Below, piece after piece: positions 2,443 through 25,066 of a stretch of 25,466 nt of DNA; position 1 is the stretch's first letter, and every line of letters begins with the position of its first letter. The notes beneath the pieces are model-generated. The model saw nothing but the letters and a program-made list of their open reading frames with translations. It made no database searches and was not told where the DNA came from. The stretch comes from a virus: the IMG/VR virus record IMGVR_UViG_3300028610_000292, positions 1 to 25,466 of that record; one strand, written 5' to 3'. The translations under genes and the position numbers were made by a program.

Positions 2443-2769
2443 TTATTCGCCTCCTCTTTCAGCTTCCCTCTCTTCCCTCTCTTCCCGCTCTGCCTCTCTA
2501 TCTCTTTTATTTCTGTAATCAGGTCTGTTAAAATGTTTCTGAATGATTGCGACCTTTCCGGCTGGGATATCTTCTTCTGCTTTAATGGAAATCTTGGTTT
2601 CTTTGTCTATGATATGACTCTCGCTTCCGCTTACCTTCCCATCCCATGCGCCTTCAAGCCAGACATGAGCGTCAACTACAGAATCCTCAACAGCGTCAAT
2701 CTCGCTCTGCGGGGACTGGACGCACAAAGCAACCCAAACAGTAAACATTAAAACAAGTATTTTTTTCAT
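2443..2769 (-). CDS. Small exported protein with signal peptide and charged Arg/Glu tail
   Basis: A 108-aa protein. Its N-terminus (MKKILVLMFTVWVALC) is a clear signal peptide or membrane anchor: two lysines, then about 13 hydrophobic residues, with a Cys that might serve as a lipid-attachment site. The residue before the Cys is Leu, so the lipobox is poor. Residues 25-80 form a plausible small beta domain. The last about 20 residues are a run of Arg and Glu encoded by a purine-rich, imperfectly repeated stretch (2450-2500), which also supplies the AGGAGG for the next gene one base away. It lies between a fibre gene and a putative ejection protein. No family recognised; secretion of a phage product from this region is unusual. 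Confidence 0.7.
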   Translation of the reverse strand: MKKILVLMFTVWVALCVQSPQSEIDAVEDSVVDAHVWLEGAWDGKVSGSESHIIDKETKISIKAEEDIPAGKVAIIQKHFNRPDYRNKRDREAEREEREEREAERGGE

Positions 2770-2778
2770 AAAACTCTC

Positions 2779-3984
2779 CTAATTTAAAAATCCGGAAAAA
2801 AAGCAATTTGATGCCGATATGTCAACCACTTTATTTCCCGTCGCAACTTTACCAGAAGCGGTCGCAGTATCGTTTGCATCCATCCATGCTAGAACAGAAA
2901 ACGGAACTATCGGTGTCGCAAGTGCGGCACTATTCACTGTCGGGAGCTGAGCGATAAATACTTGATTACTAGTATTTATCCGGACTTGCATAGCTTCGTG
3001 CGTAACGTCGATACCAGAGTAAGCGACAAGAAGACTGAACTGATAAAACCCCTCCACCGGAGCCGTAAATGTATTGCCGGAGAAATTATTGTTTAAATCC
3101 TTCGTTTCAACATTCCAGATTATGGCAACTTCCGTCCCATCTCCGGTAACATCATCTTGGCTCGCATTATGCGTCACAGAAAACGACGGTTGCCTGGGTT
3201 GAGTGACCCACCCCTCTTGATATACCCTAAGATTGGTAACAAAGTTTGTTCCAGCGTCCGGCGTAACGGCCCTACCGCCACCAACTATGAAGTCGCCAGC
3301 ACCAGTTGATATCGCATAGTTTCCAAGATTCCCGGTGTCATACGGTGATATCCGATAACCGTAAGGTCCCCAGAAGCTATCATTGTTTTTGCTTATGATA
3401 TGAGTCCAGCTTCGATTTGCAGAGGGATGCGCGTTCAACGCCAAATGAATTGCCTGTGTTCCAAAAGCATCAGCTGTTGATTGAATATTGTCGGAATAGC
3501 TTACACCAGGGCCAATAATTAAATCTCCGACAAAATCAATACGCATCCGGGCAATGTTATTAGTGTAAAACGCAAGATCCCCAGTAGGATGATAATTTTT
3601 CAATGCCACTTCATTTGCCAAAGAAGCGTGGGTAGGCCCGTAAGCGACAAAGCCAGCATGGTTCGTATCACTATTTTGAAGAATGAATGAAGCCGCAGAG
3701 TTTGTAAGTGCGTTATTGATAACAACACCCGTATTTGAACCACTGACATGCAACTTATAGCTCGGAGAAACCCCGATCCCAACCAGATTATTAACCGTAT
3801 CCACGCAAAAGGTTGGACCGTCGATACACCGCGCGGAACCATTCAGCCCAAGAACCGTCCGAATATCTTGGTAAGCGTTCTCAAACTCCTGCTGAATAAA
3901 TGGATCTTTATGCTGAAACGCTGGCCCTTCAGCAAAAACCAAAGAACCACAAAACAATAGAGGAATTAAATATCTTAACTTCAT
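2779..3984 (-). CDS. Tail fibre / receptor-binding-type protein with C1q-like C-terminal domain
   Basis: A 401-aa protein. The ATG at 3984 is preferred over one five codons upstream because GGAGG lies at proper spacing and the start overlaps the previous stop as ATGA. It opens with a signal-peptide-like segment (MKLRYLIPLLFCGSLVFAEG). Residues about 50-90 contain NNLVGIGVSPSYKLHVSG, the kind of sequence typical of tail-fibre and tailspike head domains. The last about 135 residues have the spaced aromatic/Gly pattern of C1q/TNF-like jelly rolls (NTFTAPVEGFYQFSLLVAY, then VIFIAQ-like strands, ending NCFFSGFLN). This suggests a trimeric adhesion protein at the virion surface that contacts the host. 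The signal peptide is unexpected for a virion protein. Confidence 0.75.
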   Translation of the reverse strand: MKLRYLIPLLFCGSLVFAEGPAFQHKDPFIQQEFENAYQDIRTVLGLNGSARCIDGPTFCVDTVNNLVGIGVSPSYKLHVSGSNTGVVINNALTNSAASFILQNSDTNHAGFVAYGPTHASLANEVALKNYHPTGDLAFYTNNIARMRIDFVGDLIIGPGVSYSDNIQSTADAFGTQAIHLALNAHPSANRSWTHIISKNNDSFWGPYGYRISPYDTGNLGNYAISTGAGDFIVGGGRAVTPDAGTNFVTNLRVYQEGWVTQPRQPSFSVTHNASQDDVTGDGTEVAIIWNVETKDLNNNFSGNTFTAPVEGFYQFSLLVAYSGIDVTHEAMQVRINTSNQVFIAQLPTVNSAALATPIVPFSVLAWMDANDTATASGKVATGNKVVDISASNCFFSGFLN

Positions 3985-6467
3985 TCTGTCGGCCTCCAAG
4001 GTTTGGATCTGTACCCGAATTGGATACCGAAGATTTCAAAAGGTTGGTCTGCTGCGTCATTGCCAATCTTAAAGTTTATGGTTTGACCTGTTTCACCAGC
4101 CGCAAGGTTGCGGTTGTTCTTGATGAAATCAGAATTCGCGTCTTCAAGGCCAATACTGTAATTTGTTGATGTGCTTCCATCCAATTCATAAGTCAAAGTT
4201 ACATTTGACCCAGCATCACTAGCAGCCGCAACCGATACTCGATTAAATTCCTTTTCTGTGAACAAACTGGAAACAGGATAATCCTTTGATTTCCAGTAAG
4301 CTTCTATATCAGAGCCGTTATCATTAGTGGCGCTCCCAAATTGATAAATATATCCACTGGAAACGCTTCCAAAAAACAAATTGTTGTCTTTTATCAGCAT
4401 TCCATTCATTCCGATATTGTAAAGACCCCATCCCCGATTAAACAAATCAAGCCTAAGAATATAATTATTGGCTGTAACCCCAGCCCCAGAAGCTACCGCC
4501 CACCATATTGCGTCTTCATGATAAACAGCATAGGTCTTATCTTCTACCGAACCTTCTTGCCAATTAAACGTAAAATCATACAAGGCAGGCGCCTGGGTCG
4601 CATATGCGATAGAAAAATCATCCCGCATTTGAATAAATGATCCTGTGGACATTGTTGGAATTGTACCGAAAGTTGCGCTTACCCACGAAGGAGTCGAGGA
4701 ATCCGATGTGAAAGTTTCCGTTGCCGCTCGGATATAAATATCATGTGTCCCACCGTCATCGCTTTTATTCCCAACGAAGCTTCCCCACGCTGTTAAATTC
4801 GCAGCATTGTGAACCTCAGAGTAGTAACTCATTGTAGACGGCTTAACACCAAAATCGTCAATATTTACAATCCTGTTTGTTCCCTGATTTGAATCAGTTA
4901 AAGAAAAATAAGCATAAATAGATCCCGCTGCTAAATTATGGGTTAAACTACTGACAAGAATGTCATTGATTTTCAACTGATAATTGGACGCATCAACAAA
5001 GAAATCGAAAGTAGCTGGTTGATCGTAAATTGATCCACACTTAGTTGAAGATGTATTATCGGCGCAAATATTCCCCTCATCTTCCTTTATATAATTGATG
5101 AAAATCTTCCCAGCGGAAGTAGACTGAATGATCAGCTCAAGTCTTTCGCTGAGACCGGCTGGAACATCAGCTAAAGTAGAAGAATTGGTTAAAGTAAAAG
5201 CAAGGTACGGAGTCTGGGAAACATAAAATGGATAATCTACTATTTCGAAATGAAATGTAGTTCCTGCACTGAAACTTGGCAAAGGTTCAACAAACCCAAC
5301 TGTATAAAATCCAATGTTTTGATCTGTCTGGATTACCAATTCGCCACCGCTAACAGAAGCATCGCCAGAGCCACTACCTAATGTTGACCCCCCTTCTTCC
5401 CATACCACCTTTGTACCACTCGTCCCATCTCGGAAAGAAGCAAAAGCATCTGGAAAAGTCATTTGTAGTTGATTTGCTACAGTCTCCGTATCAACAGAAA
5501 CGCCATTAATAAAATATCCATTATCAAAATCTGCACTTGATGTTTCCGTCCAGGAATTTGTCGTATTAACTTGGATATCATCAGTAATAGACGAAATGTC
5601 TTTACTCAGTTTAGTTAGGCTTGCGCCATCATAAGCATAAAAGTGGCTGTCCTGTGCTTGGAAATAAAGAATCCCGTTATAGTAGACAGACGTATTATTA
5701 AGCGTTCCAATATTGTGCGACACAATCCGAAGCGTCCAATCTGTCTGAGTTGGTCCTTCCATAAGATAACCGAAGCTCTCATCCTTAAACCACATGATCC
5801 GGCCAAAAGCATAAGTAATATGTCGAAGTTCTGGCCCCGGAGAAACAATCTTAAATTGTATCGGATCAGTCGGTTCCCCGGCCGGAGTCCAATCCGAAAA
5901 ATCATTGGCCTCTGAAACATCGAGACGGTTAGGTGCTGCAACGAATCCGGCCATAGCCAACCTCTCAACGGTACTGGTAATCATCGTACCGGTCGAAGAC
6001 GGTCCTATGTCAGAATAAGTCGCGCCATCTGTTTTGAATAATCCGTCTCGTGAAGAATTAACGCAATACGCATACCCTTCAGAGTCAGTACACTGATAAG
6101 TTGCTCCGAAGGTCTTACCTTGAAACAAAGTTGTTGAAGATCCATTGACCTCGGAGATCATATCGACATCATTAAAGAACAGAGAAACATCATTCCCAGA
6201 CGAATCATAGAAATGATAAATGCCGTGGACCGCCGAAGTCGTATGGTCCAAGGTATAAGCCAGCCCGTACCCGTCCCGCTTCTTGATCGATCCATACTCT
6301 GTGATATCTACATTCAACATATCCTGGGCCATGTGATTAGGGAGAATAATGGAATTGTCCGTGTTGTTTAGCGTCCCAAACGGAGAGATAATCATCGTGC
6401 GGTAGTCTTGAGATTGAATCCCAGCGCAACCGAAAAAGAAAAATAATCCAATAATTAGTTTTTTCAT
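3981..6467 (-). CDS. Large tail / stabilization-type protein with beta-propeller-like core and lectin-like insertion
   Basis: An 828-aa protein. After an N-terminal hydrophobic segment ending FFFFGC (resembling a lipoprotein signal), residues about 24-65 read MIISPFGTLNNTDNSII...DMLNVDITEYGSIKKRDGYG. That is the start seen in many podovirus tail or stabilization proteins that wrap the tail hub. Residues 70-300 and 570-828 hold many short beta strands with Gly-Asn turns and repeated Trp/Tyr, consistent with a beta propeller. Between them, residues about 330-560, lies a segment of alternating hydrophobic strands (FHFEIVDYPFYVS, FDFFVDASNYQLKIND, RIVNIDDFGV) that resembles a concanavalin/LamG-like jelly roll. 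The gene follows the adaptor gene and is coupled by ATGA to the fibre gene, fitting a tail-tube role. Domain names are by pattern only. Confidence 0.7.
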   Translation of the reverse strand: MKKLIIGLFFFFGCAGIQSQDYRTMIISPFGTLNNTDNSIILPNHMAQDMLNVDITEYGSIKKRDGYGLAYTLDHTTSAVHGIYHFYDSSGNDVSLFFNDVDMISEVNGSSTTLFQGKTFGATYQCTDSEGYAYCVNSSRDGLFKTDGATYSDIGPSSTGTMITSTVERLAMAGFVAAPNRLDVSEANDFSDWTPAGEPTDPIQFKIVSPGPELRHITYAFGRIMWFKDESFGYLMEGPTQTDWTLRIVSHNIGTLNNTSVYYNGILYFQAQDSHFYAYDGASLTKLSKDISSITDDIQVNTTNSWTETSSADFDNGYFINGVSVDTETVANQLQMTFPDAFASFRDGTSGTKVVWEEGGSTLGSGSGDASVSGGELVIQTDQNIGFYTVGFVEPLPSFSAGTTFHFEIVDYPFYVSQTPYLAFTLTNSSTLADVPAGLSERLELIIQSTSAGKIFINYIKEDEGNICADNTSSTKCGSIYDQPATFDFFVDASNYQLKINDILVSSLTHNLAAGSIYAYFSLTDSNQGTNRIVNIDDFGVKPSTMSYYSEVHNAANLTAWGSFVGNKSDDGGTHDIYIRAATETFTSDSSTPSWVSATFGTIPTMSTGSFIQMRDDFSIAYATQAPALYDFTFNWQEGSVEDKTYAVYHEDAIWWAVASGAGVTANNYILRLDLFNRGWGLYNIGMNGMLIKDNNLFFGSVSSGYIYQFGSATNDNGSDIEAYWKSKDYPVSSLFTEKEFNRVSVAAASDAGSNVTLTYELDGSTSTNYSIGLEDANSDFIKNNRNLAAGETGQTINFKIGNDAADQPFEIFGIQFGYRSKPWRPTE

Positions 6468-6471
6468 AGTT

Positions 6472-7209
6472 TTATCCTAAGGGGTTAGTCTTTGAAGGCC
6501 GACCGATTCCACCTACCCGACCGCCTTGCGGATACCATTTGACCCTCGCGGGGATCTCTGTTACCGCATTAAACTTGGAATTGATGAGCTTGATCCATTT
6601 CTCGAATTCGCCGGGGTCATCCACGTTGTTAGATCTGTGGAACCTGGATTTTGATAAAGCTTCAGGAGTTCCATCATCTTGAAAACATTGAGCAACCACC
6701 CAATGAACAATCGACATCGCGTAGTTTTGCATAGCCTGGTTAGCCTCGAAGGGTTCCGATGTGGAACCAGACAAGACCGTCGGGATATTGACTTCCCATA
6801 GTTTGAGCGCATCAGCATTTGCATGGTCGGAGGAAGGTTTAGGCCGTAAGATTACCTGACGATTTGAAGCGTCGTAACTGAATTCGGTAGGAAGCCCGGA
6901 GTCTTCGTTCTCCCAATTTGGATGATAAAAATCCCAATCAATACGAGATTTCCCTGTTAATGGACGTATCTCACCACTAGAATCGGTAAACGTAGCTCTT
7001 GTTATATCTACGATATCCGATCCAACCGTTACCTCTTTCGTATCGGCAACAGGCGTATAAGTATTGACCTGCTTTATTGCATTTGTAAGAGCTTGGACTT
7101 GTTGCTGTGCATACTCAATTCTTTCCCTGAGCTTAGTTACACTCCACCTGCTGTGTTGGGGATCTCCCAATAAATACCCAATTTCCGTTTCTAAAGATTG
7201 TCTATCCAT
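6472..7209 (-). CDS. Putative head-tail adaptor (neck) protein
   Basis: A 245-aa protein with ATG at 7209 preceded by GGAGGG. The N-terminus is helical (LETEIGYLLGDPQHSRWSVTKLRERIEYAQQQVQAL). It is followed by a beta-rich middle (KEVTVGSDIVDITRATF, RQVILRPKPS) and a C-terminal helical part with AMQNYAMSIVHWVVAQCF. This helix-beta-helix plan, and the phrase pattern of an N-terminal helix leading to GLPTEFSYDASNRQVILRP, match phage adaptor proteins that sit under the portal. Position just before the tail protein supports this. It is the first structural gene after the glycan island and is convergent-adjacent to an HNH gene on the other strand. Confidence 0.65.
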   Translation of the reverse strand: MDRQSLETEIGYLLGDPQHSRWSVTKLRERIEYAQQQVQALTNAIKQVNTYTPVADTKEVTVGSDIVDITRATFTDSSGEIRPLTGKSRIDWDFYHPNWENEDSGLPTEFSYDASNRQVILRPKPSSDHANADALKLWEVNIPTVLSGSTSEPFEANQAMQNYAMSIVHWVVAQCFQDDGTPEALSKSRFHRSNNVDDPGEFEKWIKLINSKFNAVTEIPARVKWYPQGGRVGGIGRPSKTNPLG

Positions 7210-7237: not shown

Positions 7238-7732
7238 ATGAGGAAACATCTGAATCCAAGGAAAAGAATTCCGATCAGAGATCGATTTTTTAAATATGTT
7301 AAAAAAACCAAAGATTGCTGGTATTGGAAAGGTGCGATTGATCCAACCGGATATGGAGCAACAGATAATGGCGGTTGGCCAAGCAAAAAAGAATCTGCCC
7401 ATCGGATGTCTTGGTTTTTCCGTTATGGCCTGATTCCAGGTAAACTTTGCGTTCTCCATACGTGCGATGTACGAAACTGCGTAAACCCTGAACATCTTTG
7501 GCTTGGAACACGAAAAGACAATGCGCTGGATTGCATTAAAAAAGGAAGGAAGTTTATTACGCATGGAGAACGATCTGGACAAGCAAAACTCACCAACAAA
7601 AAGGTTTATGAAATAAGAAAATCTTACACACCAAGAAAAACTAGCACTAGATACCTTGCTGAAAAATATGGCGTTCAACACCACACTATATGGCTGATTG
7701 TGACAAAGCAAACTTGGAAACATCTTCTTTAA
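7238..7732 (+). CDS. HNH homing endonuclease (HNH_3 type), opposite strand
   Basis: A 164-aa protein on the strand opposite to all structural genes. It has the HNH_3-type core: CW-W-G (residues 27-31), GYG (38-40), AHR (54-56), HTCD around residue 74, CVNPEHLWLG (81-90) and Asn95 in the RKDN motif, giving the His-Asn-His metal site and two zinc-binding cysteines. The C-terminal about 45 residues (AKLTNKKVYEIRKSY, LAEKYGVQHHTIWLIV) form a helix-turn-helix DNA-binding domain. Its 3' end overlaps the end of the minus-strand methyltransferase-glycosyltransferase gene by 47 bp. It is a paralogue of the gene at 10354-10911. Such enzymes nick or cut DNA at specific sites and spread themselves; the target here is unknown. 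Confidence 0.9.
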   Translation: MRKHLNPRKRIPIRDRFFKYVKKTKDCWYWKGAIDPTGYGATDNGGWPSKKESAHRMSWFFRYGLIPGKLCVLHTCDVRNCVNPEHLWLGTRKDNALDCIKKGRKFITHGERSGQAKLTNKKVYEIRKSYTPRKTSTRYLAEKYGVQHHTIWLIVTKQTWKHLL

Positions 7733-9611
7733 CTCCTATTTTCCCCAAGTTCCCCAATATTCCTTCCCCTTTAAAATTCCCCTCAATTTCCTTTAATATT
7801 CCAGCATATCTTTCCGAGATTTTATCCATATCATGATACTCTTTAATATATAAATATGCATTCTCCCCCATCATCCGTCTTTTCTTCTCATCAACAATAA
7901 GACTTCGTAAACTTTCATACCATTCTAATTCTGAACTACATAAAAGCCCTGTATTTCCATGCTCTATGCTGTTCCTGAATGGGTAAACCGGGCTAGCCAC
8001 TGTTGGGATATGAAGCGCACTATATTCGATAAATCTTAAGTTCGATTTGGAACAGTTAAAATTATTGTCCCTTAATGGAGCGACCCCGATATCCATCTTC
8101 CAAGTATTGATCTCGTATGGGTAGCGATCCATCAACACCCATCGTTCCAGAAACCTGACCCTCGGATGATCGACATCCGGCCAGAGCTTAAGGTCTCCAA
8201 CCTGGAAACGATTCGCTATTATGAAATCCAGATTCGGAAACTCTTCCAACAATTTCAAAAGAGGCCGCTTAATCAAATTCAAGTCACCGATATGGTTCCC
8301 GCAACCCGTGTACCCGATTCGGATCACACCGGGGGCCTTCTCGGTTCCCTTGATCTCGGGCGCAAGCTGTTTGTCCAAATTGTCCCAAATATCAAAATCG
8401 ATCCCGTTGGGAACCAGGTGCATCGGTTTATTTGGGAATATCTCTTTTAAATGATCGATCATGAACTGGGTCGAAACAATCAAAGCATCTGAAAGCTTTA
8501 ACTGTTCCATCGCAATCCATTCCGATTCAGAATTCGGCTTGAATGGATGGGACGCGATATTGTAGGCCGGCAGATCCAAGAGCCAATCATCGACTTCCGT
8601 AACAACCGGCTTTTTGAAAACCCCTTTGATGGTATGAAGGAAAGCCAATACGAACCTGTTCCCGGCGATCTGCCAAACGGACATATGGGCCACTGTTAAG
8701 AGCCTCTGGAAAAAATTACCCAATAACCATTTTGACCATTCAAACTTACCGTCATGCAAAGGGTAAACAACCCGGTTCTGCCAATCGGATTGAGATTCGG
8801 ACCCGTCATACCTGAAATCCTCATAGGCCGCCTCGACTCCGTACTTGTGCATCTTGTCCGCGAACCCGCGCATCCGGTAATAGACCGTCCCGGAAAGCTG
8901 GGTGAACCCGAACCAAACGCGGAGCTTCTTTTCTTTCCTCATCTCCGCTTCCCATTTGTCGATCATCTTCCCGCCCGATTTAAAAAGCAATTCCACCGGC
9001 TCGCTTTGTAGGAAAGTCGATGAAAACGCCATCGAGAATTCAGTGCCGTTCAAGGCTCGGATATAAGACTTTTTGAAAACCTTATCCAAATCGCTCCTGA
9101 GTCCATTCTCGTCGTAATACTGACAGTGGAGCCGATCATCCGACCAGATATGACGTTCTAAATTGTTGTGTGGACACGACCCCAAAAGTATCCCGTCTTT
9201 CTTCAGGACGCGCCGGATCTCTTTTAGGTATGGGATCGGATCGTTAAAATGTTCCAATGTTTCCATGAGCGTAACAACGTCAAAAGTTTTGTCCGGGAAC
9301 GGTAAATCGTCAGCATCGCAGAGGACAACATTGAGTCCTTTCTTCTTTGCGATATCAAGAACCGGAGCCGAAACGTCCACACCCGTTACATCGCAATGCC
9401 TTTTTTCTTTCAGTAACAACATGAACTCGCCTGAATTGCACCCAATATCCAAAACCTTCGCACCTTCCGGGATCTCATAAACGATAGGGAGTATCCTCGA
9501 TTGGGTGAACGGATAAGCCTCGATCCCCTGGGGCATGATATCTCGATAATTTTCATGAGATTGAATCATCTGCTCCCGAGTTAAAATTTCCTTCTCTTTC
9601 ATTTGGCTCAT
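7686..9611 (-). CDS. Fused SAM methyltransferase and group-1 glycosyltransferase
   Basis: A 641-aa protein. The ATG at 9611 overlaps the upstream stop as ATGA; a longer frame to 9734 is not needed. Residues 1-220 form a class I methyltransferase: motif I VLDIGCNSGEF (53-63), an acidic VDVS after strand 2, CDADDLPF and a FDVVTLMETLEHF motif (110-122), as in Methyltransf_11/23. Residues about 230-620 resemble a GT-B glycosyltransferase: FTQLSGTVYYRMRGFADKM, VPNGIDFDIWDN (the linker before the second Rossmann domain), RIGYTGCGNHIGDL, and a C-terminal APLRDNNFNCSKSNLRFIEYSALHIPTVAS nucleotide-sugar binding region with the E-x-x-A pattern. It may both methylate and transfer sugars in building one glycan. 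The last 40 codons are Gly/Lys-rich. Confidence 0.85.
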   Translation of the reverse strand: MSQMKEKEILTREQMIQSHENYRDIMPQGIEAYPFTQSRILPIVYEIPEGAKVLDIGCNSGEFMLLLKEKRHCDVTGVDVSAPVLDIAKKKGLNVVLCDADDLPFPDKTFDVVTLMETLEHFNDPIPYLKEIRRVLKKDGILLGSCPHNNLERHIWSDDRLHCQYYDENGLRSDLDKVFKKSYIRALNGTEFSMAFSSTFLQSEPVELLFKSGGKMIDKWEAEMRKEKKLRVWFGFTQLSGTVYYRMRGFADKMHKYGVEAAYEDFRYDGSESQSDWQNRVVYPLHDGKFEWSKWLLGNFFQRLLTVAHMSVWQIAGNRFVLAFLHTIKGVFKKPVVTEVDDWLLDLPAYNIASHPFKPNSESEWIAMEQLKLSDALIVSTQFMIDHLKEIFPNKPMHLVPNGIDFDIWDNLDKQLAPEIKGTEKAPGVIRIGYTGCGNHIGDLNLIKRPLLKLLEEFPNLDFIIANRFQVGDLKLWPDVDHPRVRFLERWVLMDRYPYEINTWKMDIGVAPLRDNNFNCSKSNLRFIEYSALHIPTVASPVYPFRNSIEHGNTGLLCSSELEWYESLRSLIVDEKKRRMMGENAYLYIKEYHDMDKISERYAGILKEIEGNFKGEGILGNLGKIGVKEDVSKFALSQSAI

Positions 9612-10297
9612 GATTTCCCACCCCACTCTTCCTTGAATCCTCTCATCCGGGCCATCATCGAATGAGGCAAAACACGATGCATACAAAGGTATTCGCCTTC
9701 CTGGATCGTGATCTTTTTCCCGGCATGTATCCAATCGTAAACCAACTGAAGATCATCGGTCTGAAGTTTTGTTTCCGCTTTGTACCCGCCGGCCTCAAGG
9801 ATATCCTTCTTTGTGTACGCGCAACCAGGATGACAAAAGTAATTCACTGATCCGGTTTCTTTGAAAAGCTTCTCGTTAAAATGTTCTCCGTTGAAGTATT
9901 CCAAAACATCGTTGTCGTATCCAATCCGGACATAAGGCGCCGTCATCATATGCCCTTCCGGGTACTTCTCAAAGAACTCAACAACCCGCTCCGCCCGCTG
10001 GATCGGATAACAATCATCGTCATCACAAACAGCGATCAAAGGAGCTTTCGCCAATTCATTTCCTTTATTCCTCGATAGGCCACCTCCTACTGATTTCTCG
10101 TTGTGGTAAATCTGGACCCGCTTATTATCGCCCAGCCATTCATTAAGGAACTCTTTGGTCCCATCAATCGAGCCGTCGTTCACAATGACAACCTCGATCT
10201 CATCCAATGTCTGAGCCAACAACCCCGACACACACTCCGCCACCCATTCGATTCTGTCGCGAGAAGGCACCACAAAAGAGACGAGTGGATTTTTCAT
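9608..10297 (-). CDS. Family 2 glycosyltransferase
   Basis: A 229-aa GT-A enzyme. It opens VSFVVPSRDR (6-15), has the nucleotide-binding VNDGS (39-43) and the metal-binding acidic cluster CDDDDCYP (91-98), which is the DxD motif. A C-terminal TDDLQLVYDW (about 180-190) supplies the likely catalytic acid region. Length is near the minimum for the family and there is no membrane segment, so it is a soluble cytoplasmic enzyme. The ATG at 10297 follows GGGGG. It is coupled by ATGA to the methyltransferase-glycosyltransferase fusion, and both belong to the glycan island. The plus-strand HNH gene at 10354 separates it from the upstream glycosyltransferase. Confidence 0.9.
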   Translation of the reverse strand: MKNPLVSFVVPSRDRIEWVAECVSGLLAQTLDEIEVVIVNDGSIDGTKEFLNEWLGDNKRVQIYHNEKSVGGGLSRNKGNELAKAPLIAVCDDDDCYPIQRAERVVEFFEKYPEGHMMTAPYVRIGYDNDVLEYFNGEHFNEKLFKETGSVNYFCHPGCAYTKKDILEAGGYKAETKLQTDDLQLVYDWIHAGKKITIQEGEYLCMHRVLPHSMMARMRGFKEEWGGKS

Positions 10298-10353
10298 ATT
10301 TCCCCCAATAATTTAGTATTATGTTCCAACCCAAGATAAGGAGGAACGAAATT

Positions 10354-10911
10354 ATGCAACTGTGTGAATGTGGATGCGGTACCCCTGTTAAACAAAAAGA
10401 AAGCAATTTTAGACCTGGACATATCATGAGAATAAGAAAATATCCTGTCCCGACACTTGAGGAAAGATTCTTTCGCTATGTTCGCAAAACACGCAAATGC
10501 TGGAATTGGATTGGCCCTATGAATCATGGTGGCTACGGTAGGCTCAGCAACGGAAGGAAAGGAGGCCGAATACTTGCTCATCGTTATTCCTGGGAATTTC
10601 ATAAAGGAAAAATACCTAAAGAAATGTATGTCTGTCATCATTGCGACAATCCGAAATGCGTAAATCCTAAACATCTTTATGTAGGAAATCAGTCTCAAAA
10701 CATGGAAGATGCCGCGCAACGAAAACGTATGCCTCGTGGAAGCAGCCACCACAATGCAAGACTTACCATAAAAGACATAGAAAGAATCTACGCACTTAGA
10801 AAACAAGGCAAGAAACAACATGAGATAGCTACTCAATTCGGAGTTACCAATTCTCACGTTTGTCTCATCCTGCAAGGGAAACACTGGGCGCATTGCTTTC
10901 AAAAACGATGA
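10354..10911 (+). CDS. HNH homing endonuclease (HNH_3 type) with N-terminal Cys-rich motif, opposite strand
   Basis: A 185-aa protein. I chose the ATG at 10354 because AAGGAGG lies ten bases upstream; an in-frame ATG at 10321 lacks a site. It has an N-terminal CECGCGTPVKQKESNFRPGH motif, which looks like a small zinc-binding knuckle common in phage nucleases. The HNH core then follows: CWNWIG (49-54), GYG, AHRYSW (75-80), CHHCD (94-98), CVNPKHLYVG (102-111) and Asn116. The C-terminus (ARLTIKDIERIYALRKQGKKQHEIATQFGV region) is a helix-turn-helix. It aligns throughout with the HNH protein at 7238-7732. It lies antisense between two glycosyltransferase genes and ends 12 bp from the upstream one, so it could have interrupted an older operon. 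Confidence 0.9.
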   Translation: MQLCECGCGTPVKQKESNFRPGHIMRIRKYPVPTLEERFFRYVRKTRKCWNWIGPMNHGGYGRLSNGRKGGRILAHRYSWEFHKGKIPKEMYVCHHCDNPKCVNPKHLYVGNQSQNMEDAAQRKRMPRGSSHHNARLTIKDIERIYALRKQGKKQHEIATQFGVTNSHVCLILQGKHWAHCFQKR

Positions 10912-10922
10912 AACTTTCGGCT

Positions 10923-12590
10923 TCATAGTATTCCCCCCATCTCTTTGATCGTGTGGATATATTTGTCTCGATTCAAATTATCTTTAAAGTATTTGCTCGC
11001 CTTCTCTCTCCGATCCAAAGAATACGGCTGGAACCTTTTCACTTCCCGAATCCGCTGGACGATACTTTTCTTTGTCGAAGGCCATAACGTATTGCTAAAC
11101 CTGGACGCGAAGGTGTCCCATTCGTTTCGTTCCAAGTCGCCGCCGGTCTTAATGTATTCCATGTAAGCCATCGGGACATTCGTTATCACATCCCTGCCGG
11201 CCAAAATGAATTCATCTGAAGCCATCGGCCTGGTGTCGTGCATGACGATCCTCAAGTAGCATGAATTCGCATAAACAAATTTCTTCCAATCCGCCTTATC
11301 CATGTTCCCGGCATGAGTCATGTTCGGATAAATCAAGTTCTTCCCGCCGTCACCGTAAGCGCAAAACTGGATGTCAGGCATCGCCCGGACAACCGAAAGA
11401 GTCTTTTCATAACAATATTTATCAAAGTCGCTTTTCCCTGTTAAAAAGATAGCAACGCTGAACTTCTCAGGAAGCGGCATGACATCAAAGTCTTGGTAAG
11501 GAGGAATCTGGACAACCTTGCTATTGATCCCCATCTCAGCCAATTCCTTTTGAGCCAATTCTGTTTCACAAAGGATATGGTTTACCTTTAAGTTCAACGC
11601 GCCAGCCAAATATTTTAAATCCTCATGCGTGAACTTCCTCAACCAGTAAATATCCGCACCGACGAAATGGACAATCTTAATTTGCTTGTCGTACTTCGCG
11701 AGTACCTGGGCGTGAGGGTTCCCCTCATCCGTCGGCTTGGTATAGAACCCGATCATATAGATCGACTTGTATTCGTTCTTCTTGAAAATCGTATCATCCC
11801 GATAATCTGCGCCGAGCATCTTGGCGATCTCTGTTCCGTGATAGGGCGCACCCATCGAAGTGACCACCATCTTGGATGTCGGGATACTATGTTTATCTCG
11901 GATATACTTGACCCGATCAATCCAGTTATCCTCTGAATCGTAAGATAATCCGCCCGCTTGCGGAATCTGTGCAATAAAACTAATTTCCCTTTTAAGGAAG
12001 TGGCCTTTGACTTTGACATCTTCTCCAACCGGTTCCCCAAACACAACACGCAACCAGAAATCCCAATCCTGAAGGCTCTTAACTTTCTCATCCCATTTGA
12101 CAACGTGCTTTCTCCAAAGAGGGAACCCGCAATCAATAAAATTCGCTTGCTTCAATTCAAATGCGTTGAACGATTTAGAGGGATACCAGGCCCGGTCCTT
12201 TGTCCCGTACTCGTAAGCTCCATAAATGAATCCGCAATCTGGATGAGTTTGCAACTCGTCGATCCACATCCGAACCATTCCACGTTTTGCAATGTAGTCG
12301 CTATTGAAGAACGAAACGATCTCACCCTTGGAAGCCTCAAACCCGGCGTTCCGGGCCGCAGGTGCGCCGCCATGTTTAATCTCGACAACCTTCACCCGTT
12401 TATCTTTGTGGAACGACATCGGCACCTTAAGCAGTTCCGGATCAATACCGTCAAACGCGCAAATGATCTCAATATTTGAATAGTCTTGATCGATAAGGCT
12501 CATGATGCACCGCTTAAATAGGTCTTTATCAACCTTGTAAACCGGTACGATAAATGAGATCAACGGTTCTCTTTGTAGTTCGATTGTCAT
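10923..12590 (-). CDS. Two-domain glycosyltransferase (GT2-like plus GT-B-like)
   Basis: A 555-aa protein whose ATG at 12590 overlaps the methyltransferase stop as ATGA. Residues 1-260 are GT-A/family-2 like: ISFIVPVYKV (11-20), FDGID (47-51), GGAPAARNAGFEASKGEIVSF (the conserved donor-binding region, from 74) and then FFNSDYI (94-100). The metal-binding motif here is NSD instead of DxD. QDWDFWLR supplies the usual C-terminal acidic region. Residues about 300-530 look like a GT-B half: VVQIPPYQDFDV, VAIFLTGKSDFDKYCYEKTLSVV, and ASDEFILAGRDVITNVPMAYMEY. It may add two sugars in sequence, or the second half may be a non-catalytic partner. It sits in the middle of the glycan island. Confidence 0.8.
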   Translation of the reverse strand: MTIELQREPLISFIVPVYKVDKDLFKRCIMSLIDQDYSNIEIICAFDGIDPELLKVPMSFHKDKRVKVVEIKHGGAPAARNAGFEASKGEIVSFFNSDYIAKRGMVRMWIDELQTHPDCGFIYGAYEYGTKDRAWYPSKSFNAFELKQANFIDCGFPLWRKHVVKWDEKVKSLQDWDFWLRVVFGEPVGEDVKVKGHFLKREISFIAQIPQAGGLSYDSEDNWIDRVKYIRDKHSIPTSKMVVTSMGAPYHGTEIAKMLGADYRDDTIFKKNEYKSIYMIGFYTKPTDEGNPHAQVLAKYDKQIKIVHFVGADIYWLRKFTHEDLKYLAGALNLKVNHILCETELAQKELAEMGINSKVVQIPPYQDFDVMPLPEKFSVAIFLTGKSDFDKYCYEKTLSVVRAMPDIQFCAYGDGGKNLIYPNMTHAGNMDKADWKKFVYANSCYLRIVMHDTRPMASDEFILAGRDVITNVPMAYMEYIKTGGDLERNEWDTFASRFSNTLWPSTKKSIVQRIREVKRFQPYSLDRREKASKYFKDNLNRDKYIHTIKEMGGIL

Positions 12591-13213
12591 TTTGTTTCCC
12601 CTTTTTTGGTAGCGATCCCCAGACCGCTTGACGTTTTGAAATCTTCGTAAATCCATTTGTTCCCCGGCTTCGCTGTGACTCCGCAATGATTCAATCTGTG
12701 CGAATTGATCCCATGAAAATAATCTTTTAAACATCGGCCCATTTCTTCGATATAGGCAATATCATGAACCGCAATCTCTCCCCCTATGGTAAGCCTCGGC
12801 ATGAGCAGCTCAATATCATCAACAATATCTCCGATCTGATGATCCGAATCCAAGAAGGCCATATCGATCTTGGATGGTAAATAATCGATATTCTTTTGAA
12901 GTGTTTCGCCCATAAGAGACAATCGGCCATCCGGTATCGCCAGCTTCTCCCATATCCGGCCCTCCCCTCTGTAGCTATTGATGTCAATCGTATGGAGATG
13001 GCCAAACCCGTTTTTCTCTAAAGCCAAGAGCATCCAAGAAGTTGAATAGCCATGCCCGGTTCCAACCTCAACCACATTCTCAGGCCGTTTCTTGATAATG
13101 CGATCATGAAGCATTTGCCCATGCTCAATTTCGATAGCCAACAGGTCCTTATGCTGGTTCCTGTTCTCTTTGCCCATCGCGATCAGGCATTTTTCGATCT
13201 CAATTAAGTTCAT
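12587..13213 (-). CDS. Class I SAM-dependent methyltransferase (Methyltransf_24-like)
   Basis: A 208-aa protein. Motif I is NVVEVGTGHGYS (47-58), followed by HTIDIN after the second strand, and a FLDSDHQIGDIVDDIELLMPRLTIGGEIAVHDI segment (split here as FLDSDH, then LTIGGEIAVHDI). This is the pattern of the Methyltransf_24 / cephalosporin-hydroxylase-like group often found in polysaccharide clusters. The probable substrate is a sugar or an amino sugar intermediate. The start is coupled by ATGA to the upstream gene and the stop by ATGA to the downstream glycosyltransferase. Acceptor specificity cannot be read from the sequence. Confidence 0.85.
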   Translation of the reverse strand: MNLIEIEKCLIAMGKENRNQHKDLLAIEIEHGQMLHDRIIKKRPENVVEVGTGHGYSTSWMLLALEKNGFGHLHTIDINSYRGEGRIWEKLAIPDGRLSLMGETLQKNIDYLPSKIDMAFLDSDHQIGDIVDDIELLMPRLTIGGEIAVHDIAYIEEMGRCLKDYFHGINSHRLNHCGVTAKPGNKWIYEDFKTSSGLGIATKKGETK

Positions 13214-13704
13214 ATTTTTTTTGCGTTACTGGAAACATTAAGTTTCCCACCGATCTTGTTTAGATTCGAAGCCGTCAAAACAGCGTTCCCATTTACATAA
13301 AGACTTCCCCTAACCTCTTTTAAATTGTCGCTCGTCACGTTCTCGTTGATCGAAAGATCGCCGGGATAAATCCCTTTCGCAACATGAGGAATAATATATT
13401 TATCGAGCGCATCCATGCATCGGTCAAACCATAATTCCCGGTCCTCTTCAAACCAAGCTGGCAAACTATTCTCCTCATCAACACTCACGCCCCAACCATT
13501 AAACCGGAGCATAGGATCAAACCAACACCCCCTCGGCCATATCTGGACCCGGACAAATTTTCGATTAAGCAAGTCCTCATCCCTGAGGCCCAGGTCTCTA
13601 ATCAGAAGCTCATGACTGTCATGCGTCAAACTGTACTTTGGCACAATATCGTCTTTGACGCAGATGAACACCTTCTTACTTGATCCCGAATTATTTGAGT
13701 TCAA
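13210..13704 (-). CDS. Hypothetical protein of the glycan island, TTG start
   Basis: A 164-aa protein with no recognised family. The first usable codon is TTG at 13704 with GAGGT about nine bases upstream, and it overlaps the aminotransferase gene by 14 bp; a GTG at codon 12 is an alternative. Residues 60-110 are rich in Trp and acids (VQIWPRGCWFDPMLRF, WFEEDRELWFDRCMDALDKY). Residues 115-160 contain a repeated pattern of short strands (GDLSINENVTSDNL, GSLYVNGNAVLTASNL, GGKLNVSSNAKKI), spaced about 15-18 residues, like a small beta-solenoid. It could be a sugar-binding or scaffold partner of the neighbouring enzymes, but this is a guess. Confidence 0.7.
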   Translation of the reverse strand: MNSNNSGSSKKVFICVKDDIVPKYSLTHDSHELLIRDLGLRDEDLLNRKFVRVQIWPRGCWFDPMLRFNGWGVSVDEENSLPAWFEEDRELWFDRCMDALDKYIIPHVAKGIYPGDLSINENVTSDNLKEVRGSLYVNGNAVLTASNLNKIGGKLNVSSNAKKI

Positions 13705-14803
13705 AATTCATTACCTCTAAAACCACTCGTTCCGCATCTGCTACCGTCATTGTCGAGGAAACCGGAAGGCTTATCGTCGTTGCCCCGATCCTTTCCGCTT
13801 TCGGGAAATCGCCCTCTCCGTATCTCAAGAACTTGTAGGCCGGCTCCAAATGTAACGGCTTGAAATGTATCCCGGTCCCGATCTTTCTTTCATATAAAGC
13901 CTGTCTTAATTTGTCTCTTCTGGGGGATCGAATCTCAAAGATGTGCTGAGAGTGACCATCTCCCTTTTTATCATCGAACGATTTCTCGTAAACCTTCCAG
14001 ACCTTGGCCCGCTTCTCTCTAAGCTCCGGCCAGCGTCTTAACTGCGCCAATCCTATGGCCGCATGGATGTCAGACATATTCCCTTTGTGGCCGGGGAACT
14101 CGACTTGGTAATTGCAAACCGTATCCCTGCCGTATCTCTTCCAAGCGCCCATCGTAAGCCCTTGAAGGATAAGCGTTTTGATTCGAGTTGCGTGGTCCGG
14201 GTATCGACAAATCACCATCCCACCCTCGCCACAAGTGATGTTCTTCGTGGGATAAAAGCTGAAACAGGTGAAATGGCTTATCGTTCCAATCTTTTGCCCT
14301 TTGTACGAACCTCCGAAAGCGTGGGCCGCGTCCTCAATCACTATCAAATTCTGGCGCTTGGCAAGCCTGTTTATCTCATCCATGTCGCATGGCGCGCCAG
14401 CGTGGTGGACCGCAATAATTGCCCTGGTCTTTTCGGTGATAGCGTACTGAACCAAGTTGGGGTCAATATGGCCCGAAGCTGTTACATCAACAAGCACCGG
14501 TTTGGCTCCCACTTGTAGGACTGCGTTTATCACGGCTGGGAACGTCATGGCGGGGATAATAACCTCATGACCGCTTCCGATGCAGGCAACCGTCAAAGAG
14601 GCTACCAGGGCCTCAGAACAAGACGATACGGCCACAGCGTACCCGCCACCGATGAACTTCTCGAACTCTGTCTGGAACTCTTGGACAACCTTGCCCGTAG
14701 ACAACCAGCCGGACCGCATAACATGAGCAACGGCCCGAATCTCCTCATCTGAGATATCGGGCTTGCTGAAAGTTATGAATTCCGAACTGGCTTTCTTTTT
14801 CAT
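13691..14803 (-). CDS. DegT/DnrJ/EryC1/StrS-type PLP sugar aminotransferase
   Basis: A 370-aa protein of the usual length for the family, which transfers an amino group to a keto-sugar nucleotide. The opening FSKPDISDEEIRAV and SGWLSTG (31-37) are family hallmarks. SSCSEALVASL (60-70) binds the cofactor phosphate. IEDAAHAFG (156-164) holds the Asp that contacts the pyridine nitrogen, and SFYPTKNITCGEGGM (182-196) holds the Schiff-base Lys187. All catalytic residues look intact. The start overlaps the upstream stop as TAATG. With the dehydrogenase-like and methyltransferase genes it points to synthesis of a modified amino sugar nucleotide. Confidence 0.93.
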   Translation of the reverse strand: MKKKASSEFITFSKPDISDEEIRAVAHVMRSGWLSTGKVVQEFQTEFEKFIGGGYAVAVSSCSEALVASLTVACIGSGHEVIIPAMTFPAVINAVLQVGAKPVLVDVTASGHIDPNLVQYAITEKTRAIIAVHHAGAPCDMDEINRLAKRQNLIVIEDAAHAFGGSYKGQKIGTISHFTCFSFYPTKNITCGEGGMVICRYPDHATRIKTLILQGLTMGAWKRYGRDTVCNYQVEFPGHKGNMSDIHAAIGLAQLRRWPELREKRAKVWKVYEKSFDDKKGDGHSQHIFEIRSPRRDKLRQALYERKIGTGIHFKPLHLEPAYKFLRYGEGDFPKAERIGATTISLPVSSTMTVADAERVVLEVMNFELK

Positions 14804-15045
14804 TAAACCTCAAGAAAATCGACGCAAGGGCAAAGATGACACTCTTCGCCTACCCCATTGAATATGTGCATCCGGCGAGGGTGACCGCAACCGCCACGAG
14901 CGCATTTGTCTTCAAGACCACCAATAGCCTTCTCCGCTTTCTTTGTCAGCGTTTTACAGGTTGCCGGGCTAGGAGCAACCGGCGCATCCACTGGCGCGGG
15001 TTCAACTACCTTCTTTTTTGCTTTTGTTACTTTTCGTTTCTTCAT
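14803..15045 (-). CDS. Small Cys/His-rich, probably zinc-binding protein
   Basis: An 80-aa protein. The N-terminal half is basic and then Pro/Ala-rich (KKRKVTKAKKKVVEPAPVDA), a flexible tail. The C-terminal half has a compact CARGGCGHPRRMHIF followed by ECHLCPCVDFLEV, giving Cys-Cys-His-His and C-x-x-C-x-C ligands for a metal site. Related small CGHxxxxH...CxxCxC proteins are common in phage genomes without known function. It overlaps the dehydrogenase-like gene upstream by 44 bp and is coupled by TAATG to the aminotransferase. Role unknown; nucleic-acid or protein binding are both possible. Confidence 0.75.
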   Translation of the reverse strand: MKKRKVTKAKKKVVEPAPVDAPVAPSPATCKTLTKKAEKAIGGLEDKCARGGCGHPRRMHIFNGVGEECHLCPCVDFLEV

Positions 15046-15739
15046 TGCTTGACCTCACAAACTCAAAGATAGGTGAAGAAAATTGTTGCCTTAATATTTC
15101 AACGCACTCCAAAATACAATGTCCGCCGATCGGATCCGGTCTCATGATCGGCCTCATCATATGCGGTTGGAGCAATTTGAAATAACCAGCATTGTAACTC
15201 TCTTCCCATTTTTCATACGTCAACGGATTTGCTTCAAAATGTTTTAAGATTCGGTCCACTTCTTGCGCCCATGCGATCTCGATCCCCATATGGATATTTG
15301 ACAGCATCTTACTTAACTCGGTTCCCTCTACGTCTTTGGTTGAAAACACCTCCCATCCGCATTCCTTGAAATACTTCGACGCGATATCCGAGTCCTTCTC
15401 GTTCGCGCTGGCAATAAACTTTGGGAAGAATTTGAGTTCTACCGAAAGTTTCGGCCGGTGTCTCCCTCTGATCGGAGAGTAAACAATGTGGCCCCCGATC
15501 TGTTCCGTCGTTCCAATCGTGATGGAAGAATGGATGATTGTTAAATCTGGTTTGTATTTCTTCTGGTATCTCTTAACTTCAGCGATAAATTCGTCACTAT
15601 CTGGAAAACAGATGTGCATCACTTCAATATCAGGAAGATCACACTCCCCAACATCACGGATATATGTCGCGTGATAAGGTTTGATGACCTCAAACAATGC
15701 TTGTCCTACTTCGCCTCTGCCTATGATTAAACTTTTCAT
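15002..15739 (-). CDS. Short UDP-sugar-dehydrogenase-like NAD-binding protein
   Basis: A 245-aa protein starting at ATG 15739 after AAGGAAGAG. The N-terminus is a Rossmann NAD-binding strand-loop-helix (SLIIGRGEVGQALFE, GxGxxG form at 7-12). Residues 139-163 (GTELSKMLSNIHMGIEIAWAQ) resemble the central helix of UDP-sugar dehydrogenases. PIGGHCIL (203-210) resembles their GGHC catalytic-cysteine motif, with Cys208 as candidate nucleophile. Known enzymes are near 400-450 aa and end with a second nucleotide-sugar-binding domain, which is absent. The end is polar and basic. It could oxidise a sugar nucleotide or be a reduced form with another activity; the assignment is by motifs only. First gene of the glycan island. 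Confidence 0.6.
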   Translation of the reverse strand: MKSLIIGRGEVGQALFEVIKPYHATYIRDVGECDLPDIEVMHICFPDSDEFIAEVKRYQKKYKPDLTIIHSSITIGTTEQIGGHIVYSPIRGRHRPKLSVELKFFPKFIASANEKDSDIASKYFKECGWEVFSTKDVEGTELSKMLSNIHMGIEIAWAQEVDRILKHFEANPLTYEKWEESYNAGYFKLLQPHMMRPIMRPDPIGGHCILECVEILRQQFSSPIFEFVRSSNEETKSNKSKKEGS

Positions 15740-15811: not shown

Positions 15812-16843
15812 CTAGTCGCCGCTTTTGTACGTCATGATAATACCAGCCGAAGGATTCAGAATCTTAGCCGCCACCGCGATCTTGTACCCGATGTAGGTAC
15901 GCTGATCGAGAGGGTCGCTCTTATCTGCTCCCGAGACGATATTAACTTTCGTATCTTGGCCACGAAGCTTGGTTACACCATAAGCACCTTTTCCGACGAT
16001 GAGAGTTCCATACAAGGAACCACCACCTGAAACATACCCGGAATAAGTTGAAGCGAGAATCGCAACGGTCATTGCCTGAGAACTTTCCTCAAACAAGACG
16101 CGTTCAATCACTCCAAGTCTTCCTCGTTCCATTGCACTCCGGTTGGTGTAAGCCATCCAGGTTGCAAAGTTAGAGTCAGCCCTGATTTGATCCGAAACCG
16201 TGGGACTCACGATTCCGCGATAGTTCCCGTCTTCAAACGGCATAGCATCGAGCTTTTTCAATTCAGTAACAGCCTTTCGCACGTGTGCGATAGTTGTCAC
16301 CGTAGAGAAGAAACCGTTCTGCAAACCAATGGCAGCCCAGAAAGTTGACGTTCGGTTTGCTTCAAACAAGGGAAACCCTTGAGTAAAGGCCGAAGGAAAC
16401 TTGGTGGACGACGCATTAGCGAGGCCGGTCGAAGCCGCAGACCCAAATCCGATTGCGTCGGAAATGAAGTTATCTACGGTCAAAGCCGCACCATAACCGA
16501 GAGCGTCTGCTGTCTCTTTGACAACAGGGTTCACGGCTGTAGCAGCGACCCGAGTAGTTACGTTGCGGAGGTCGGCTTTCCAAACTTGAGTTGCGGACAC
16601 TTTGCGAGTTGACATTGCGCTGGTTCCAGGGGTTCCAGTCTCATCGAGAGTGTAACCTGTTCCGGGATTTTTCAGCTGATGCCAAATCACTGTGTCGCCC
16701 TCATTCATTGGAAGCGACTTCTTAACAGCGAACTTTTGGTAAACCAGATTAGCCATGAGGCGTTCCAGGAACACTTTGTCGTAATAGTTCCCGATCATTG
16801 TGGTAATGGTCACGCCGCTGGTATCTGTATATAAGTCAGTCAT
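15812..16843 (-). CDS. Major capsid protein, N4-gp56 family
   Basis: A 343-aa protein with the sequence character of the N4-gp56 family of HK97-fold capsid proteins. An N-terminal segment leads to YYDKVFLERLMANLVYQKFAVKKSLPMNEGDTVIWHQL (split: YYDKVFLERLMANLVYQKF, then GDTVIWHQL), followed by a GYTLDETGTPG loop. A central helix contains VDNFISDAIGFGSAAS, and the C-terminal domain includes GTLIVGKGAYGVTKLRG and RTYIGYKIAVAAKILNP. It is expected to assemble the icosahedral head. It follows the scaffold candidate and is preceded by GGGGGG eleven bases from the ATG. The next gene on the same strand starts the glycan island. Confidence 0.88.
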   Translation of the reverse strand: MTDLYTDTSGVTITTMIGNYYDKVFLERLMANLVYQKFAVKKSLPMNEGDTVIWHQLKNPGTGYTLDETGTPGTSAMSTRKVSATQVWKADLRNVTTRVAATAVNPVVKETADALGYGAALTVDNFISDAIGFGSAASTGLANASSTKFPSAFTQGFPLFEANRTSTFWAAIGLQNGFFSTVTTIAHVRKAVTELKKLDAMPFEDGNYRGIVSPTVSDQIRADSNFATWMAYTNRSAMERGRLGVIERVLFEESSQAMTVAILASTYSGYVSGGGSLYGTLIVGKGAYGVTKLRGQDTKVNIVSGADKSDPLDQRTYIGYKIAVAAKILNPSAGIIMTYKSGD

Positions 16844-24165: not shown

Positions 24166-24677
24166 CACTTCACCTCTTTTATTTTGGATAGGGCATCCAT
24201 AACCCTTGGAAACAAACATTCTGGGTCATGCTGTCCAATTGCCCCAGGACCGGCTTCACCCATGTCGCAACCGGTTCCACAAGCGCAAGGGTTTAACTTA
24301 TCTAAAGGATGCTCATAGCACCCCCTAAACAACTCCAACGCCTCCACCGCAATCCTCACCTTCTCCCTTTCGGACTCTAGAACCTCCCAAGGCATGAAAG
24401 TGACCTCAAGCCTTTTCTTGCCATCGGCTACAGTCTTCGTAATCATCTCACAACATTGGCGATATATTTTTCCATTTGCCCTTGAGCGCAAAGCAACACC
24501 CCAACGATAAGCATTTTCCGCCTGTTTCTCTTGGGTGGATTTTTCTTGGGCGACTCTTTCGAGGTAGCCTTTGACAAATGTTATGAGACGCGGTGCCTTT
24601 GTTCTAATCTGAAGTTTATTTTGTTTAAGGAAATTTTCCTCTATCTCCCTGGCTTTCTCTTCTGTCATCTCGTCCAT
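24165..24677 (-). CDS. Hypothetical protein with helical N-terminus and Cys motif
   Basis: A 170-aa protein. The start overlaps the preceding stop by one base (TAATG). It is mainly helical and charged: EEKAREIEENFLKQNKLQIR, RVAQEKSTQEKQAENAYRW, KVRIAVEALELFRGCYEHPL. A NPCACGTGCDMGEAGPGAIG segment (about 128-148) followed by HDPECLF gives Cys-Cys-Cys-His-Cys ligands. It has no recognised family. It is coupled to the Cys-rich gene downstream, and the two could work together. Confidence 0.7.
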   Translation of the reverse strand: MDEMTEEKAREIEENFLKQNKLQIRTKAPRLITFVKGYLERVAQEKSTQEKQAENAYRWGVALRSRANGKIYRQCCEMITKTVADGKKRLEVTFMPWEVLESEREKVRIAVEALELFRGCYEHPLDKLNPCACGTGCDMGEAGPGAIGQHDPECLFPRVMDALSKIKEVK

Positions 24678-25066
24678 TACTTCGCCCCCTTGCTGCTGTT
24701 CTCTTCTCTTTCAATGAATCGACAATTGGATAAAGTGTAATTGCCGTCATTGGCAATCCTGTCCAATGTGGGTTTTTTCAACAACCCTCCCTTGTCCCTT
24801 TTCCATAAAAAGGTCATGCCTTTTTGCGATAAATTCATTTGAATCCCTCTTCCTCCATACCTGTGATATTTGTAATGATTTTTATCGTTGCACCTCTCTT
24901 TTGCTTTCAACCACGAAACATACCACGGATACCTTACCTTGAGTCTCCTGTTTGCGCCCCTTGCACATATTAAGCAAACACTGCTGTGCCGATTAGGACA
25001 TTTTTTATTCCTCATGAATCTTCCTATGGTTTTTATTTTTTTACAATGAATGCAAGTCCTCTTCAT
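24677..25066 (-). CDS. HNH-like phage endonuclease with N-terminal zinc ribbon
   Basis: A 129-aa protein. The N-terminus MKRTCIHCKKIKTIGRFMRN and SSVCLICARGANRR carry two C-x-x-C pairs, a zinc-ribbon. Then WLKAKERCNDKNHYKYHRYG followed by GRGIQM and the C-terminal TLDRIANDGNYTLSNCRFIE match a widespread phage family in which these motifs (RC...YGGRGI, DRI-NDGNY-NCR) mark small HNH-type or AP2-linked nucleases. It runs in the same direction as its neighbours, unlike the other two nucleases here. It lies inside the segment bounded by the 78-bp repeats. Confidence 0.75.
   Translation of the reverse strand: MKRTCIHCKKIKTIGRFMRNKKCPNRHSSVCLICARGANRRLKVRYPWYVSWLKAKERCNDKNHYKYHRYGGRGIQMNLSQKGMTFLWKRDKGGLLKKPTLDRIANDGNYTLSNCRFIEREENSSKGAK

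Follow-up and report, generated by a model that had tools for sequence, protein, structure and literature searches.

Why would a phage keep enzymes for making and attaching sugars between the gene for its capsid and the gene for its head-tail adaptor? The question is raised by IMG/VR record IMGVR_UViG_3300028610_000292, a viral record of 25,466 bases that is taken here in full and that we call the window. Its minus strand encodes, in order, terminase, portal, a scaffold-like protein, the major capsid protein (MCP), eight open reading frames (ORFs), the adaptor, and tail genes. The eight ORFs, here termed the cassette, fill the interval from 15739 down to 7686 and include three glycosyltransferase (GT) genes. 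On the sequence evidence, the cassette is an ancient fixed locus of an uncultured phage clade, sited between the capsid and adaptor genes. We assign a probability of roughly 0.55 to its being a cytoplasmic, self-contained locus that glycosylates the phage's own particles, with a virion protein as the most likely acceptor. An earlier sequence-only reading had described this interval as an amino-sugar and glycosyltransferase island; the interval of 7686-15739 and its eight minus-strand ORFs are borne out, and most of the gene assignments agree with the ORFs and with Pfam, PHROG and NCBIfam profile matches. The cassette and its boundaries are as follows.

15812 to 16843, minus strand: MCP, N4-gp56 family, left boundary of the slot (NCBIfam TIGR04387, 113 bits, cut-off 60; PHROG 1357, major head protein).
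15002 to 15739, minus strand: DH, a short nucleotide-sugar dehydrogenase (TIGR03026, 37 bits, E 1.5e-9, far under the cut-off of 190).
14803 to 15045, minus strand: u14803, an 80-residue Cys-rich protein with no Pfam or PHROG match.
13691 to 14803, minus strand: AT, a DegT/ArnB-type nucleotide-sugar aminotransferase (PF01041, 359 bits).
13210 to 13704, minus strand: u13210, a 164-residue protein with no family match.
12587 to 13213, minus strand: MT, an S-adenosylmethionine methyltransferase, O-methyltransferase-like (PF13578, 72 bits; O-methyltransferases in the PDB).
10923 to 12734, minus strand: GTa, a core gene with a GT2 domain (PF00535) and a GT-B-like C-terminal half.
9608 to 10297, minus strand: GTb, a GT2 glycosyltransferase and core gene (PF00535, 104 bits; homologue alignment).
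7686 to 9734, minus strand: MTGT, a class I methyltransferase (Methyltransf_11) fused N-terminally to a GT4-type glycosyltransferase.
6472 to 7209, minus strand: SU10-type head-tail adaptor, right boundary of the slot (PF24175, Pfam SU10_adaptor, 48.6 bits, cut-off 27; PHROG 399).

The position of the three GT genes is constant. Capsid-seeded scans recovered relatives with 51-94% identical capsids, and every contig spanning the site has GTa, GTb and MTGT between capsid and adaptor, while DH, AT, MT, u14803 and u13210 are gained or lost around this core. A capsid-independent scan seeded with MTGT found 48 further viral contigs among the matches listed. Having been picked up by way of the GT gene, these carry it by construction; and because the scan is read from the matches listed, clade members that lack the cassette may have escaped it. 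All three markers were detected in 27 of the 48, and in all 27 the GT4 gene lies between MCP and adaptor; it adjoins the adaptor in 26/27, and the order GTa-GTb-GT4 is likewise kept in 26/27. At this site the deeper members, whose capsids are about 30% identical (L122, L126 and L129-L135), contain bigger cassettes, with short-chain dehydrogenase/reductase (SDR), hexapeptide acetyltransferase, DegT, Gfo/Idh oxidoreductase, UDP-GlcNAc 2-epimerase, and several GT genes. The interval of a related cassette-free clade (L140-L203) holds collagen-like genes and genes with weak tail-fibre-like matches.

Phylogeny gives the same picture. In a tree of 56 capsids from the capsid-seeded scans the cassette label is strongly clustered, needing 4 changes compared with 17.6 when labels are shuffled. 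In an extended tree of 89 capsids, a branch with 100/100 support separates 61 cassette-clade rows from 28 cassette-free rows; 3 of the 61 (L124, L125, L127) are too short downstream for scoring, and the long cassette-free rows API480, L171 and L190, whose placement was unsure in the first MCP tree, were omitted from the second. The cassette had been said to interrupt a head-tail operon, which synteny in the relatives shows to be misleading: it is the standard content of the clade, not an insertion that splits a normally adjacent capsid-adaptor pair.

The GT core also diverges together with the head genes. Over ≤11 genomes compared pair by pair, the divergence of GTa, GTb and MTGT follows that of TerL, portal and MCP (correlation r 0.54-0.87, a level reached in ≤2 of 2000 permutations), and the median identities of the GTs, 0.50-0.59, fall inside the head-gene range of 0.44-0.63 (adaptor, portal, TerL, MCP). 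The tail protein tailA gave a distance correlation of about zero, probably an effect of several truncated or mis-started copies, and this value was not used. GC content at third codon positions (GC3) is 0.48-0.59 in cassette genes, 0.51-0.58 in head genes, and 0.32-0.36 in the HNH endonuclease genes described below. We scanned 84,980 genomes of bacteria and archaea from pattern seeds, a search that covers in part the idea that the cassette genes might lie in host polysaccharide clusters, and found no full-length GTa relative and only matches of about 30% to the GT2 domain; the searches for relatives likewise started from sequence patterns, and both may overlook distant homologues. Composition, phylogeny and the genome scan together led us to reject a recently acquired host island, and the word island itself does not suit a locus with the GC and GC3 of head genes, whose GT core occurs in every relative covering the site and co-diverges with the head. 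Judged from these comparisons, the core GTs descend together with the head genes and the precursor genes are exchanged.

The gene order is not an artefact. Contig L002 is identical to the window over 13,031 bp, from near the terminase into GTa, and contig L003 is colinear with it from terminase to adaptor inclusive (DNA identity about 81%), which rules out the assembly join that had been raised as a possible refutation. Chance ORFs were rejected as well, since homologues align end to end and catalytic residues are invariant.

Close cultured relatives were not found in the phage collection, where the portal was unmatched, the MCP reached ≤27% and GTa was matched in its GT2 domain only. The circular genome MW202801 (Podoviridae sp. 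ctQWt234, Manatee Spring) has a GT-rich cassette directly after MCP, with the same layout and different tailoring genes (radical SAM, PhyH, NodB-like); it was annotated gene by gene, not as a module. Among the contigs, no prophage or host flank was found that would assign a host, and the contig that carries the integrase, G006, terminates within phage genes.

What could these enzymes do? GTa, GTb and MTGT are three GTs with four GT domains. The sequence-only reading missed that GTa itself contains two GT folds. The AlphaFold model of GTa has a pLDDT of 76 overall and its long C-terminal half models as a GT-B-like fold; Foldseek matches it to GT2 polymerases, the listed PDB matches covering mainly the N-terminal GT2 half. 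This two-domain architecture is kept in 41/43 distant homologues. The core part of MTGT is the GT4 domain (PF00534, 26 bits, slightly under the cut-off; PHROG 7162, glycosyltransferase), and the methyltransferase fusion (PF08241, 87 bits) is confined to the window lineage, being found in 0/48 distant homologues. No membrane segments were found in the cassette GTs; the single flagged stretch falls inside the soluble aminotransferase AT. Two other arrangements were seen among relatives. The GTa homologue of L126 (12228-14381) carries a fused methyltransferase domain at its C-terminus, compared with the N-terminus of the GT4 gene in the window lineage, a difference for which domain shuffling is a possible explanation. 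In L011 (14972-16063) an ORF that by its sequence, including a DPPY motif, resembles a DNA methyltransferase is inserted between GTb and MTGT.

Like the GTs, the precursor enzymes look functional as far as their sequences can tell. DH matches UDP-sugar dehydrogenases in the PDB (E 5e-5), and an alignment of six relatives shows GxGxxG, K144, N148 and IGGHC208 to be invariant, so that the NAD motif and the catalytic Cys, Lys and Asn are present; the roles of these residues are those of known Ugd and WecC chemistry. The protein has 245 residues, comprising the NAD and central domains, and ends there. Its match to TIGR03026 extends no further than position 299 of 413, and the C-terminal UDP-binding domain of UDP-sugar dehydrogenases is absent by this profile. 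AT retains the region of the pyridoxal phosphate lysine, SFYPTKNITCGEGG, and its closest solved structure is ArnB (1mdo, E 7e-96). Homologues of u14803 occupy the same place in L003, L005, L017 and L118; those of u13210 occur only in L003 and L005 (53-67% identity), and a structure model of u13210 was rejected as unusable (pLDDT 53). In the deeper members the Gfo/Idh protein has WbpB as its best solved relative (E 2.6e-30), the acetyltransferase is of the WlbB/WxcM type and the epimerase is WecB-like; the short dehydrogenase is also found in L126. A profile search of the window cassette found no Gfo/Idh 3-dehydrogenase, N-acetyltransferase or 2-epimerase, all of which are present in L122 and L126. 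The DH and AT of the window may be a remnant of a UDP-ManNAc3NAcA-like pathway, or may supply another sugar.

The earlier proposal of a sugar-synthesis and sugar-attachment set in a late, head-linked position is supported, and the enzyme classes suggest how it could act. DH, AT and MT would produce or complete a nucleotide sugar, one that is probably an amino sugar and possibly C6-oxidised or methylated; in the window lineage this pathway would be partial and need keto-sugar intermediates from the host. GTa, GTb and the GT4 part of MTGT would then add sugars sequentially, and the methyltransferase part of MTGT would perhaps cap or tailor the product, presumably a short, methylated oligosaccharide that includes an amino sugar. 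The acceptor would be a phage structural protein co-produced from the same late operon, and the particle-borne glycan could shield particles or aid adsorption. Exchange of precursor genes would alter the glycan while the core GTs stay with the head genes. Antibody shielding is not a likely benefit for environmental phages; adsorption, stability and avoidance of debris may be candidates.

The case for a cytoplasmic acceptor comes from what accompanies these enzymes. Searches of ten contigs of unknown completeness, in which positive controls worked, found no initiating sugar-phosphate transferase (PF02397), no flippase (Polysacc_synt, PF01943), and no member of the thymidylate-synthase family (PF00303, including dCMP/dUMP hydroxymethylases). 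These absences, together with the membrane-free GTs, favour a cytoplasmic acceptor, and from linkage and co-divergence with the head genes we infer a virion protein. The sequence-only reading had left virion decoration and host-surface modification side by side. Without lipid-linked glycan machinery or membrane-spanning GTs, decoration of a putative virion acceptor is favoured.

Several observations weigh against virion glycosylation. The virion acceptor and the glycan are predictions from gene content, the gene absences come from contigs of unknown completeness, and DH and AT score far under equivalog cut-offs (for AT, 288 bits compared with 631 for the ArnB model NF008658). The precursor pathway of the window lineage is incomplete by itself, since it is without the 3-dehydrogenase, N-acetyltransferase and 2-epimerase. 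Late expression equally suits a change of the host surface, and at least one relative has an integrase, so some members may carry out lysogenic conversion. Ser/Thr-rich proteins are not commoner in cassette-bearing sets (15/352 and 14/209) than in the cassette-free set (15/260), and Ser/Thr-richness, which does not discriminate between the two, was rejected as an acceptor marker.

The main rival, which we consider a possible but distinctly less probable explanation, is that, during infection or lysogeny, the GTs change the host receptor by acting on lipid-linked precursors of O-antigen or capsule, which would block superinfection or keep progeny from being lost on debris. O-antigen or capsule synthesis is indeed what most of the enzymes' relatives serve, PHROG groups the weak GTa and GTb matches with GtrB-like O-antigen conversion, and an integrase is present in 1/10 contigs. 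However, none was found in the other 9/10, the initiating transferase and Polysacc_synt flippase are missing, the GTs have no membrane segments, unlike GtrA/GtrB/Gtr, and the linkage of the cassette is fixed, with GTs that co-diverge with head genes.

Two further readings are each improbable. The slot could be a cargo site without a role in the virion, a gap tolerant of insertions whose cassette is a passenger kept for host metabolism. The related clade does carry other, tail-fibre-like genes there, HNH elements insert in the slot, and precursor genes turn over; yet the three GTs keep their order, architecture and head-gene-like conservation across the sampled clade, and the catalytic residues are invariant. 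It is about as doubtful that a swappable oligosaccharide borne on the virion replaces a protein tail fibre and sets adsorption and host specificity in place of a receptor-binding protein, a proposal that arises because the slot holds fibre-like genes in the related clade and glycan genes here. The weakest reading, that the GTs protect phage DNA from restriction by glycosylating its modified bases, has precedents in phage GTs (Pyle 2024, as cited in PMC12619734; Shewanella phage Thanatos, PMC12838424) and is very unlikely for a locus whose ten contigs of unknown completeness yielded no thymidylate-synthase-family enzyme and whose three GTs, aminotransferase and dehydrogenase sit in the head module, not among replication genes.

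The gene inventory of the sequence-only reading, sound for the eight minus-strand genes, overlooked two plus-strand genes at the cassette junctions.

10321 to 10911, plus strand: HNHa, a free-standing HNH endonuclease between GTa and GTb (HNH_3, 44 bits).
7238 to 7732, plus strand: HNHb, a free-standing HNH endonuclease overlapping the 3′ end of MTGT (HNH_3, 37 bits).

HNH insertions at the core-GT junctions differ among relatives. HNHa (GC3 0.36) is present in L003 (15310-15900) and absent from the GTa/GTb junction in L005, L006, L014 and L017; L003 lacks HNHb (GC3 0.32), and there the MTGT and adaptor genes overlap. Antisense HNH genes lie at the GTb/MTGT and MTGT/adaptor junctions of L020 (12341-12871, 14647-15123), and L007 has a sense-strand HNH gene beside GTa. 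With their low GC3, the HNH genes look mobile and recent, and they are the only recent-looking part of the locus. A possible third small endonuclease-like ORF, a candidate picked by eye, lies upstream of the terminase (24677-25066, minus strand).

Two observations concern the tail modules. In the cassette-bearing phage L208, a gene at 5619-6617 encodes a 332-residue protein with an 80-residue stretch that is 97% Ser/Thr, near further GT genes (GT9-like, GT21-like); it is possibly an O-glycan acceptor, or possibly a low-complexity assembly error. In the window, the tail proteins after the adaptor (3981-6467, 2779-3999 and 2443-2769, minus strand) begin with N-termini resembling Sec signal peptides, e.g. 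MKKLIIGLFFFFGCAG, which is odd for proteins presumed to assemble in the cytoplasm. By a crude rule such N-termini occur in 13/58 post-adaptor proteins compared with 0/62 upstream proteins; Sec-like tail genes are also found in L019, L016, L014, L017, L020, L024, L258 and L229 and are kept in much of the wider clade.

How does the locus compare with known systems? The chlorovirus PBCV-1 encodes cytoplasmic GTs of its own, which decorate its major capsid protein; this is a eukaryotic virus and its genes are unrelated. The L126 cassette is close to WbpA-B-E-D-I, which makes UDP-ManNAc3NAcA for Pseudomonas O-antigen, having a dehydrogenase, WbpB-like Gfo/Idh protein, DegT, acetyltransferase and 2-epimerase, whereas the window has only the short dehydrogenase and a DegT protein nearer ArnB and PseC than WbpE; the cassette is also phage-borne and without Wzx, Wzy or ligase. 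ArnB, the UDP-4-amino-4-deoxy-L-arabinose aminotransferase, is the closest solved relative of AT, but its partners ArnA, ArnC and ArnT were not seen in the cassette. GtrABC serotype conversion likewise uses phage-borne GTs; the cassette differs in its head-module location and in having no membrane GT and no Polysacc_synt flippase, the GtrA family not having been searched. The nearest parallel in function is from mycobacteriophages, in which GTs (Che8 gp110, Corndog gp38) glycosylate capsid and tail-tube proteins and shield particles from antibodies, according to PMC12363180 and PMC12619734, which cite Freeman 2023 for the glycosylation. Phage-encoded GTs are common to both, those of the window being soluble; here, in contrast, three GTs with four GT domains and nucleotide-sugar genes occupy a fixed, clade-wide MCP-adaptor slot, known so far from its genes.

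Glycosylated phage particles are already known, and single genes of this kind have been annotated before, since MW202801 shows the same layout; a locus so fixed and ancient was not found, nor was a description of it as a module, in the literature searched, which took in few subscription papers. If virion glycosylation is the correct reading, self-glycosylation would be clade-wide and ancient in small podovirus-like phages, not a rarity of a few mycobacteriophages, and precursor cassettes would swap as O-antigen genes do. Many phage DegT, GT and epimerase genes now called 'auxiliary' would be explained as virion-finishing genes, and the three GTs with MCP, adaptor and tail proteins would form a defined gene set for testing virion glycosylation.

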